Shown: piece by piece, positions 32,430-53,635 of the stretch
How the letters are laid out: every line of letters begins with the position of its first letter
Position numbering within the stretch: the stretch's first letter is position 1
Assembly (NCBI GenBank): GCA_019096065.1
Contig: JAGUCH010000002.1
Span: 9,126,501-9,190,500 of the forward strand
Direction of reading: 5' to 3'
DNA from: Paracyclopina nana
Taxonomy: Eukaryota > Arthropoda > Copepoda > Cyclopoida > Cyclopettidae
DNA: 64,000 nt
Notes under the pieces: model-generated
What the model was told of the DNA's origin: nothing
Database searches by the model: none
What the model saw: the letters and a program-made list of their open reading frames with translations, nothing else
Made by a program: the position numbers and the translations under genes

Positions 32430-33353
32430 AACGTGGTGCTCACCCTCCTCCAAGGCGACCGATTGGAAAAACGTAAAGCTTGCCTTTATTCCACATCATA
32501 GACCCTTTCGCAGCCGAAGAAGCCGTCTCTCTAATAATTACGTCTGCCACGACGACACTCCATTTTATTAGCATACTCCATTTACAATTAGAAGAAGACG
32601 CCAAGAAAAAGCTACAGCTTTGTAGAGAAAAAAAAAGCTTTTTGACAGATAATAGTTTTTTCCAAATCATGTTCATCGCGCGAGCAAGATGATCTATACT
32701 AATAAGGTGAGTTCTTATCGCTGCTTTACTATAGCGCACAGTCTGACTGAGCTGTGGTAGGCTTCAAGACGAAATTTCAATAGAATTCTGTGGATTTCAC
32801 TTCCATAAATTTCCTTAATCCACCATAAATTAGCAAAATGTGCCTAAATCGCAACTTTTTTTTTATAAAAACAGAACTTATCTGGGAGCTCTGTTTAAAA
32901 AGCGAGATATTAGCCCGCTCGCTTCCATCACTGACGTCACTTGAGCTCACGCGCTATGTAGTAAGAACTACTAGCGCCACTGCAGCTAAGACGAACAGAT
33001 TTGGTGATTTTAGCATGCAAAACTTGCGTCAAGAACTCACTTACGAGACCCCCCTGCGCGCGAGAATGTTTTGTATATTCCAGATGCATACCACAGCAAC
33101 AACGCCACCATCATCACATTCTATAAATTGCTATATTGTATTGAAAAAAGAATAATTATGTGAACAACGCGCCACCTTCACGCAGAATTGCTCTCGCGCA
33201 CATTGTGTAGGCAACACATGCGCATGCAACGAGCTATTATTAATATCACATTATACAATAAGATATGCTGAATGTAGTAACCACGAGAAAATAGCGAAAA
33301 CAATTGATAAGAATGTCACACATTAGTGTCATGCATGCCCCCATTTCATCATC
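32430..33353. other. Intergenic, upstream of the HPS1-like gene
   Basis: It holds an uninterrupted copy of a dispersed repeat at 32686..32750 and a TGACGTCA site near 32933. No further gene is supported. Confidence 0.4.
32686..32750. repeat. Dispersed repeat, uninterrupted copy
   Basis: GCAAGATGATCTATACTAAT, then AAGGTGAG and CTGCTTTACTATAGC, matches 24928..24992. Here the sequence runs on into CAGTCTGAC without the 849-bp insertion, so it is an empty-site paralog. Confidence 0.75.
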
Positions 33354-34826
33354 ATGTTGCTGATCATAGAGAGTCTGAGTGCTCAAGTGCTTTTCCAATA
33401 CCCGCATCATGCCAAAGATGGCGAAAGCAACAAGGCCAAGGTCATGCAACTCGTCACTCCCATCGTGCTTGGTCAGAGGATTTTTCGGGAAGAGCTCCAT
33501 TTCGAGGTGACGGAAGTTAGAATTGGCGCAAGCACACTCCTAGTCAGCTCTCATTTGGATCGCTACACATTAGTCGTGAAAGGCCATTCAAGAGCAAGCA
33601 GCGAGCTCAAGGCCTTCCGAAAGGCCTCTTATGATCTCATCAATTTGTTATGCGGCCCCTGCTGGCTCCATTTGAAGACCAATAGCAGCTGCGCGGAGAG
33701 GCTTAGAAATTGCATCGACTCCATGCGAAAGTATCTCTTGGAGGAGCCGCATTTCGCTCTTGGAATGGCTTCGAGGCCAATTCAAGTGTTCAATGCTTCA
33801 GTAGGCAGCAATGCCTGCGATGACAATGTCTGGGTGTTGGTTCGCAAAGAGGCAAGTTTGACAAATCCCATCAACCGGAGGGACAAGTTACCCGTGTCCT
33901 TGAATCCGTCAGATTTGGTCATCCTTTCGTATGCTAATGTAAGCTCTATGAAAGGCCTACTACTATACGCTCGCGAGAGAGGAGCCCAGAGTTATGAACT
34001 ATTCACCATGAAAATCACTTCCCTCGACAGACCCACGGAGAGCCTAATAATCCTGGAAAAAATGCACAGCACACCCATAGAAGCCTTGCTCACAATTGGT
34101 CTCGCCGTCCTAGACATTGCCTTTCAGGCCTCAAAAAGATGCAATGAAAATACTGCTACTGCTGTAATGCCTCAAGCTTTATTGCGTCGCCTCGCTACCC
34201 TTAAAGAGGAAGCTTCACTGCATGGGAAAAGTTTGGCTGCGCACATTTTGCACTTTTTGCAAACTTTTGAGCACAATCAGAGCCCTTTGATTTTGCAACA
34301 CAAACTGCAGACATTGGCTAATTTGGTGCACCTTTCAATGATGAAGCTCACTCATCCCGACACAGCGGTCACATCTATACCCAACTCCACTATAAGATGG
34401 ATGCAGAGGAGGCTGTTGATGAATGAAGTTTTCATTAGATACAAAGAACCCGATGAACTGGCGAACAATAGGCTAGCCAACTACCTTCAACGCCATCCTT
34501 TCAGTTTGGCCTGGGTCTTGATAGAACCGAGCTCTAGATCTATTTGGAGAAGTAGCAACGCAACCACGGAGGCTGAGAAAACTTTCTTGTGGAGCCTGTA
34601 TCAGGAAATTTGGTCTCGCCCTCACCAACCCACCGAAAGGTCATGGAGTGTTAACCAAAATATTTCCATCTATAGGTACAAATGGTCAGTTTCACAAGAG
34701 GAAAGCTCTAAGGAAACGATCACTTGGTATAACAAGTTAATGAGTTCAATGCAGACGAGTCAAATTGACGATCACTGCAATTTTGTTCTCTACATTCTTT
34801 GCATGAGCGAAAACAATGAAAAATAG
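33354..34826 (+). CDS. HPS1: HPS1-like protein (BLOC-3 subunit)
   Basis: HPS1 with HPS4 forms BLOC-3, the exchange factor for Rab32/38 in lysosome-related organelle biogenesis. This intronless ORF encodes 490 aa. The start MLLIIESLSAQVLFQYP fits the first longin-type strand of the FUZ/MON1/HPS1 superfamily. PIVLGQRIFRE, then HLDRYTLVVKG, resembles HPS1 (PVIISSMTMLEK, then a first-domain strand). The C-terminal NSTIRWMQRRLLMNEVFIRY, then HPFSLAWVLIEPSSR, resembles the third HPS1 domain. It is about 200 residues shorter than human HPS1, mostly in the middle linker. Similarity is remote, so MON1 or FUZ relatives cannot be fully excluded. Its stop is 42 bp from that of NDUFS4. Confidence 0.6.
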   Translation: MLLIIESLSAQVLFQYPHHAKDGESNKAKVMQLVTPIVLGQRIFREELHFEVTEVRIGASTLLVSSHLDRYTLVVKGHSRASSELKAFRKASYDLINLLCGPCWLHLKTNSSCAERLRNCIDSMRKYLLEEPHFALGMASRPIQVFNASVGSNACDDNVWVLVRKEASLTNPINRRDKLPVSLNPSDLVILSYANVSSMKGLLLYARERGAQSYELFTMKITSLDRPTESLIILEKMHSTPIEALLTIGLAVLDIAFQASKRCNENTATAVMPQALLRRLATLKEEASLHGKSLAAHILHFLQTFEHNQSPLILQHKLQTLANLVHLSMMKLTHPDTAVTSIPNSTIRWMQRRLLMNEVFIRYKEPDELANNRLANYLQRHPFSLAWVLIEPSSRSIWRSSNATTEAEKTFLWSLYQEIWSRPHQPTERSWSVNQNISIYRYKWSVSQEESSKETITWYNKLMSSMQTSQIDDHCNFVLYILCMSENNEK

Positions 34827-51487: not shown

Positions 51488-53635
51488 CTACTGCAGCTTC
51501 GGCACAGCCCATACGCACGACTCCTCGATGCCCAGGTTGTCACGATGCATCGCTATGCGGAAAAAGCCGTATTCGCCCCAATAGGTACCTGAAGAGTGGG
51601 GCATGTCAGTTTTCAGGGGAGATAAGCGAAAAATGTGCTATATCTTACCCCAGCTGTTGCGCCCGATCCAGAATTCTTTACCGGTAGCCTTGTCTACTCC
51701 CCAGCCCACGATGCTGATTTCGTGGTTGAGCTGAGGCGGCGTGTCGAGCTTTTCAGAGTAGATTCCTCCATCGTAGTGCTCAAACTTGAGGGTGACATCC
51801 ATTGTGCAAGCTGCAGAGAAGAAAGCAATTTTACGTTTCACGAGGGACAATCTTGCGAGCGCTCTCACCGATAGGACCCCTTTTGTAGATTTCTTTTTTC
51901 ATAGCTTTAGCTCCCGAAACGCGGCCGTACTCGGAAACAAAATACCGAGTGAAATTCGTTCTAGCCCAGCAATTTCCCACCTCATTGGGGCCCGGGGGTG
52001 GCCAACCGCAGTCACGGCAAACATTCAAATGAGGCTGCCGACAATCTGCAACGGGGTCATGGTCCTGTGCGTCATAAACCTGACATGTCATGTCCGGGAC
52101 CTGCATGTTTTTTTAAAGAGAGTGAGACGAGCTAAATACGAGTTTGCTAATAATGCTTACCCCAACGTCGTGCAAAAATTCGTAGACCTGCTCAGGCGCT
52201 CCGCCCTCGCAGCTTCCTCCTGCCCTGCAATTTACGATGACTTGCGGAGACAAGGCCAAATTGGCATATTTACGCCTATCGGCAATAATGAAGCGGTCCG
52301 CGATTGCAGACAGCGTAGCTTGAGCCCAGCAAGAACCGCAGTATTGAGGGATGTGCTGATTCACTGTCCATGACAGATAGTTGATGCCATCCACGTTTCG
52401 CCAGTCCCAGGCTCTGGGTAAGTCAAACGATCTGACTGAATATTTCGGCTCAACGCTTATTATCTTGGGGCCATTCTTGAAGCCCTTGCTGACGACGCAT
52501 GCGGACGTTTTCCTAGACAGCGTTTTTCCACGCGAGGATTGCACTCGCTTCGTCTTCGATACTTTGTCAATGAAGCTAAAAATGATGTGGAGAAGCTTGC
52601 TTCTGAATGCTTCCTTAGTCATAGATTGATTTCTTGGAGGCTTCGCTTCCTCAATATGCGTCTTTGGCTGAGGAGAAGCTGGTTGAAGGGCATTTTTGGA
52701 CCACGTGTTTTCGGGAGTTGCCCAAGTGCAAGTTCCGCTTTCGATGCCGATATTATTGACACCTTTTCTGAGGCGGAAATATCCGTTTTCTCCCTACATA
52801 ATTAATCGGCTCGTTTCAGGTAAATAGCAAGATATACATTTAGCATTTTTACCCAATAAGTTCCCCAAGAATTTCTGATGAGCCAATAGTCCCATCCAGT
52901 CTTCTCATCATGGCCGTAACCAACAACCGAGATGTCATGGTCTATATTCGAGTTGTTGGTGGTGTCATAAAAAATACCGCCCGTGTAATTTTTGTAGAGC
53001 TCATCGGTTACAGCGATGCCGCATGCAATTGGGCCTCTGTGGTAGATTTCAGCCATCATGTTGAACTCTTGCTCCTTGGGAGTCTTCCCTTCCACATCCC
53101 CATATTCCTGTACCCTATACTTGTGATACTTGGGTGGAGTGGAGCATTCGTCTGCATCCGGGTCGCATGTCTCGCAAACCTCGAGATTGGAGCACGGCAG
53201 ACCATTGTCATGGCCCCTTGCCCTATAGATCGAGCAAGTCTCGTCAGTGATTCCTGCCTTGGCCATGTACTCATTGGCACTTCCGCTATCGCCCCCATGG
53301 CAGCCATCATCAGGCCCACAGGAGATGATGACTTGGGGCGAAATGTTGAAATCCGGCCAGCTCGCATTCCTCATAATTTTGATACGGTCCGACAATGCAC
53401 TCGTGGCAGCCTGGGCCCAACACGAGCCGCAATATTGGGGAATATGTTGATTTTTTGTGATGGTCAAGTAGTTGATTCCTCCCACGTTGTCCCATCTCCA
53501 TTCCTTGGGTGGGGGACTCCTTGGCAAAGAGCTCTTGATCAGGCTTTTCCTGATGGGGTTCCTCTTGTGGCCGTGAAAAATACCTTCAACGCCATAGTTA
53601 AAAATAAGTAAAAGAAAGAAGCCTACAAGCTTCAT
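51488..53635 (-). CDS. CTSZ: Tandem double-domain cathepsin Z (cathepsin X) cysteine protease
   Basis: Cathepsin Z is a papain-family lysosomal carboxypeptidase. Five exons (53635..52853, 52793..52161, 52100..51869, 51810..51649, 51588..51488) give 636 aa holding two complete catalytic domains; human cathepsin Z has one (303 aa). There is a signal peptide (residues 1-18). Domain 1 has NQHIPQYCGSCWA with catalytic Cys72, IDHDISVVGYG with His233, and IRNSWG with Asn255. Exon 2 finishes domain 1 (GENGYFRLRKG), crosses a linker of roughly 80-100 residues and enters domain 2 at DLPRAWDWRNVDG. Domain 2 repeats NQHIPQYCGSCWA (Cys416), LNHEISIVGWG and GRNSWG. The HIP insert is the mark of cathepsin Z. 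Both triads look intact. Retaining the 59-bp first intron would end a one-domain form at 52802. Confidence 0.88.

Follow-up and report, generated by a model that had tools for sequence, protein, structure and literature searches.

The minus strand of the window (the whole 64,000-nucleotide stretch analysed, positions 9126501-9190500 of contig C2 in a genome of 91,952,342 bases and 10 contigs) carries, from window position 53635 to 51488, a predicted gene whose five exons join into one 636-residue frame (71.7 kDa), the spliced product of which has two domains of the cathepsin Z/X type (domains 1 and 2, the two heads of the protein) behind a single signal peptide. The claim of the initial annotation that a single reading frame encodes two complete cathepsin Z proteases holds in this model, with both heads complete and the coordinates in agreement. 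The DNA best supports a single chain that comprises both heads, because intron 1 needs splicing, the frame runs past domain 1 with no stop and domain 2 lacks a good signal peptide, and the gene is very probably transcribed as one mRNA. Probably, if only modestly so, the gene is a fused tandem duplicate that encodes a double-headed precursor, the linker of which would be cut to give two carboxypeptidases. The parts of the gene are as follows, in window positions:

52853..53635, minus strand: exon 1, residues 1-261, with the ATG at 53635; encodes the signal peptide (about 1-18), a short Cys-less pro-region (about 19-41) and domain 1 up to TYW
52794..52852, minus strand: intron 1, 59 base pairs (bp), GT-AG, phase 0; read-through reaches a TAA
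52161..52793, minus strand: exon 2, with the end of domain 1 (262-288), the linker (289-384) and the start of domain 2 (to residue 472)
52425..52712, minus strand: linker, residues 289-384, inside exon 2
52101..52160, minus strand: intron 2, 60 bp, GT-AG, phase 0; the best join by one point only
51869..52100, minus strand: exon 3, domain 2; alone, without a Pfam match
51811..51868, minus strand: intron 3, 58 bp, GT-AG, phase 1
51649..51810, minus strand: exon 4, domain 2 with catalytic His579 and Asn601; PF00112, E 4.6e-13
51589..51648, minus strand: intron 4, 60 bp, GT-AG, phase 1
51488..51588, minus strand: exon 5, C-terminus of domain 2, with the TAG stop ending at 51488

Judged by sequence, both heads are cathepsin Z/X, with a carboxymonopeptidase activity that is only predicted. 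The motif NQHIPQYCGSCWA begins at residues 62 (head 1) and 406 (head 2), and the papain-family catalytic set with the oxyanion Gln is kept in each (Q63/C72/H233/N255 and Q407/C416/H579/N601), so that the motif, the His (233/579) and the Asn (255/601) are retained in both halves as the initial annotation had described. A Pfam search of the spliced frame gives two Peptidase_C1 stretches; taken piecewise, the exon 1 frame (read to 52802) matches PF00112 at E 1.5e-40 and has procathepsin X as its top PDB match (E 8e-61), and the share of exon 2 that belongs to domain 2 matches PF00112 at E 7.9e-17. Searched separately against the PDB, each head returns procathepsin X (1deu) first, with 209.1 bits for domain 1 and 218.4 bits for domain 2, followed by 1ef7. 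The heads are 43% identical to each other over protein residues in a MAFFT alignment, and their mature parts share 111 of 239 aligned residues.

The likeness to cathepsin Z/X, as represented by human procathepsin X (1deu), covers the catalytic residues, the HIPQY mini-loop ahead of the active-site Cys (present in both heads and aligned to 1deu), the Cys pattern, the short pro-regions and a putative pro-Cys before head 2. Each mature head has 11 Cys, in 11 alignment columns common to both (agreement with the human chain was judged by eye, and the last Cys of head 1 lies outside its alignment), and the remaining one of the protein's 23 Cys, C360, lies in the linker. C360 sits 25 residues before D385, the residue that aligns with the one preceding the human mature start in the 1deu alignment, and the corresponding human distance is 28 (C10P of a 38-residue propeptide). 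The pro-region of domain 1 (residues 19-41) has no Cys, and the asymmetry proposed earlier, a pro-Cys-like residue before domain 2 and none before domain 1, is thus present, and the different control of the two halves that the initial annotation drew from it is a possibility. Unlike cathepsin Z/X, with its one catalytic domain per chain, the protein has two (a departure at the level of the gene model only), its head 1 is without the pro-Cys, the region near the C-terminus is shorter in both heads, and neither the RGD nor the ECD integrin motif of the human enzyme (PMC13257197) was found in the two-headed protein.

The continuity of the chain depends on intron 1. If it is retained, the frame stops at an intronic TAA after ...TYWVKMLNVYLAIYLKRAD, giving a domain 1 frame of 279 amino acids from which residues 262-288 of the domain are lost; if it is removed, the frame reads GENGYFR...GIESGTCTWATP, the counterpart of which in head 2 is GEYGFFR...GIEESCVWAVP. 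Splicing is therefore required on grounds of homology, since the conserved end of the domain would otherwise be lost. The junction is as initially annotated: the exon ending in TYW at 52853 is followed by a 59-bp GT-AG intron (52852-52794), and the exon at 52793-52161 completes domain 1 and, with no stop across the linker, leads on into domain 2. For comparison of intron lengths, six gaps separating exon matches in other cathepsin genes were chosen from the same genome and resolved by the best-scoring GT-AG joins; these introns measure 52, 52, 58, 64, 62 and 65 bp, and a 59-bp intron is thus normal for this genome. Introns 1-4 of the two-headed gene remain the best joins even when only non-Z cathepsins serve as references. 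On the plus strand, antisense open frames at 52844-53611 (255 amino acids, opposite domain 1) and 51777-52373 (198 amino acids, opposite domain 2) are probably shadows of the coding strand.

The linker comprises 96 residues (289-384), open in the frame fixed by domain 1, and is basic (K+R 21%) with seven Pro. It contains KTKR (341-344), the sole K/R-x-K/R-R site of the whole protein, and a cut there would give head 2 a 41-residue propeptide. In human procathepsin X the 38-residue propeptide carries C10P bonded to the active-site C31, and the zymogen is unable to process itself and can be processed by cathepsin L in vitro, according to reviews (PMC10650516, PMC13257197 and PMC7863939); human cathepsin X is held latent by this pro-Cys (PMC7863939). 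It is because of these properties of the human propeptide, together with the position of C360, the KTKR site and the Cys-less pro-region of domain 1, that a cut precursor with one thiol-locked and one lock-free head is favoured.

The steps that we infer for such a precursor, namely the origin of the gene, the C360-C416 lock, the cutting of the linker and the activity of the products, may be outlined as follows. This lineage would have gained a tandem copy of a cathepsin Z gene, and the upstream one of the two would have lost its stop, the former intergenic gap and the pro-region of the second copy becoming the in-frame linker. The gene would yield one secretory precursor, with the signal peptide of domain 1 carrying both heads into the endoplasmic reticulum, where the disulfides of each head would form. 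C360 bonded to the active-site C416 may keep head 2 latent, like human procathepsin X, and head 1 would be without such a lock. The basic linker would then be cut in the endosome or lysosome or en route, with KTKR344 as one conceivable site and a cathepsin L as one conceivable protease, and two carboxymonopeptidases would be released in a 1:1 ratio. Polyserases 1-3 provide a likeness in their tandem protease domains within one polypeptide, polyserase-1 being able to yield three independent domains by processing, although these are serine proteases (PMC1435904).

The initial annotation had envisaged a polyprotein or a covalently paired protease; the single chain stands on the splicing, the missing stop and the lack of a good domain 2 signal peptide, while a cut and a lasting chain are not told apart by DNA. 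An uncut chain would be a lasting single-chain dimer, a two-headed carboxypeptidase with heads differing in specificity or pH range. Human cathepsin X has been described as an active homodimer of 55 kDa (PMC10650516), carboxypeptidase D has more than one carboxypeptidase head per chain, two of its domains being predicted active (PMC5683605), and the identity of the heads at just 111 of the 239 aligned residues leaves room for separate roles. Carboxypeptidase D is, in contrast, a metallocarboxypeptidase and not of the papain type, and is membrane-bound in the trans-Golgi network (PMC5683605). The long basic linker would suit lysosomal cleavage, and the presence of a pro-Cys ahead of head 2 suggests that this head still matures as a zymogen, in which case removal of the propeptide would normally part the heads; a lasting pair, the main rival of the cut precursor, is considered unlikely. 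Somewhat more doubtful is a single-chain heterodimer under asymmetric control, in which head 1 would be unlocked and active early, head 2 would be redox-locked by its pro-Cys, and, with no other cathepsin Z made by the animal, all cathepsin Z activity would pass through the pair with a two-step activation.

No description of a two-domain cathepsin, or of such a protein, was found in open-licence PMC papers, the 'two papain-like domains' in PMC10650516 denoting the halves of a single ordinary fold. If real, a two-headed cathepsin Z would give the papain family its own counterpart to carboxypeptidase D and to the polyserases, and a natural single-chain pair with one head unlocked would allow direct tests of the roles of the dimer and of the lock.

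Several observations weigh against one chain cut at its linker, and most of them bear on whether the locus could instead hold two ordinary tandem genes, with domain 2 starting either at Met319 or in a first exon that went unseen, and the linker open by chance. Chance alone keeps a linker-length frame open in 3-6% of cases (3.4% of 20,000 linker-derived Markov sequences and 6.5% of the 127,424 window positions, counted on both strands with coding ones included), and a KTKR-like site occurs in 4126 of 20,000 shuffled linkers. A codon-usage score was trained on 4663 codons from 13 sequences, the two-headed gene not among them. By this measure exon 1 reaches +0.146 in frame and exon 3 +0.105, while within exon 2 the end of domain 1 reaches +0.163 and the domain 2 stretch +0.141; the linker gives no coding signal, scoring -0.033 in frame versus +0.004 in the third frame and -0.003 in an antisense frame, and 370 of 2000 open Markov sequences match its score (residues 289-356). 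This test is weak because the undoubted part of the pro-region (353-384), at -0.053, scores no better than the linker, and codon usage neither supports nor excludes a coding linker. A moderately hydrophobic run follows Met319, and only 4 of 70 internal Mets (from 11 sequences) reach its hydropathy, which leaves room for a signal peptide at this site, whether working or a relic. The same genome has tandem cathepsin B genes, and the two-headed gene itself is a prediction from DNA.

On the other side, no stop lies past domain 1 in the frame demanded by homology, and the start at Met319 is weak in both its context (T at -3) and its signal peptide, the best 11-residue hydropathy being 1.64, where three clear signal peptides from elsewhere in the genome reach 2.58, 2.75 and 2.88. 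Eight ATGs lie between 52870 and 52380, and a clear signal peptide follows none of them: two are in the domain 2 frame, one of them with an immediate stop and the other Met319 (52622), and the ATG at 52846 begins a hydrophobic peptide that is only 14 residues long. Because it has several disulfides, a cathepsin domain requires the secretory pathway, and the only clear way into it for domain 2 is the signal peptide of domain 1. The absence of AATAAA and ATTAAA between 53700 and 51200 says little about a transcript ending after domain 1, since none follows domain 2 in this interval either. Taken with these points, two separate genes are improbable. An assembly artefact, in which a base error or a lost stretch fused two genes, is very improbable although the gene rests on a single assembly, as the splice sites and frames are all intact across 2.1 kb with both heads complete, the linker matches the genome once, at itself, and the heads, with 43% of protein residues identical, differ too much to stem from a collapsed repeat.

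For the favoured fused duplicate, two features of the heads bear on its age. Before the C-terminal NL(G/A)IE, head 2 is 8 residues shorter than human cathepsin X, and this stretch is equally long in head 1, though the human alignment of head 1 ends earlier; in this comparison, which covers the two heads and the human enzyme, the equal shortening fits a duplication after the loss. Intron positions are not common to the two heads, the nearest pair being 11 bases apart in the alignment, which implies that the duplication is not recent or that introns have moved.

A genome search with the full protein gave 23 matches, five of which are the two-headed locus itself; the best match elsewhere (82.3 bits, 35% identity) is a cathepsin B, and no second cathepsin Z locus in the 92-Mb genome appeared among the best candidates listed. 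Within the loci L001-L029, HIPQYCGSCW occurs only in those covering the two-headed gene, CGSCW without HIPQY is present in 14 others, and nine of the 29 have no CGSCW at all (one is a leader match and the rest are single exon matches or divergent frames). One locus on contig C3 (L014, 10288946-10292611) resembles the two-headed gene in consisting of adjoining duplicated cathepsin genes. Unlike in the latter, each of these cathepsin B genes (343 amino acids each, stop to stop) has its own signal peptide and stop, and after the first stop come 120 bp in which stops close each of the three frames, and then a new signal peptide; the pair is an ordinary tandem duplicate, and a 722-amino-acid open frame there, considered as a second fusion, was rejected as two separate cathepsin B genes. 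Beyond this genome, a collection of genome contigs yielded 16 prokaryote loci at 22-42% identity, none of 67 pattern matches in viral contigs was confirmed as a relative, and the NCBIfam search gave no match.

Two further candidates were set aside. The linker as a repeat or transposon was rejected on its single genome match, the locus itself, and a nematode operon with trans-splicing was rejected as the SL1 leader has one match only, with 2 mismatches. The genome contains 80 matches to the cuticle domain Chitin_bind_4, pointing to an arthropod-like animal; the nematode cuticle collagen domain Col_cuticle_N was not found in it, a weak result as the control genomes are equally silent.

The two-headed gene is preceded upstream by a SNARE gene on the same strand, ending about 180 bp away, and another neighbour is a WD40 gene on the opposite strand. 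Elsewhere in the window, a plus-strand open frame of 499 amino acids (33327-34826) has no Pfam match at 1e-5, and the segment 24001-26000 combines low guanine plus cytosine (GC) content (0.346) with a GC skew of 0.180 and an AT skew of 0.148, both skews being the highest in the 2-kb table.
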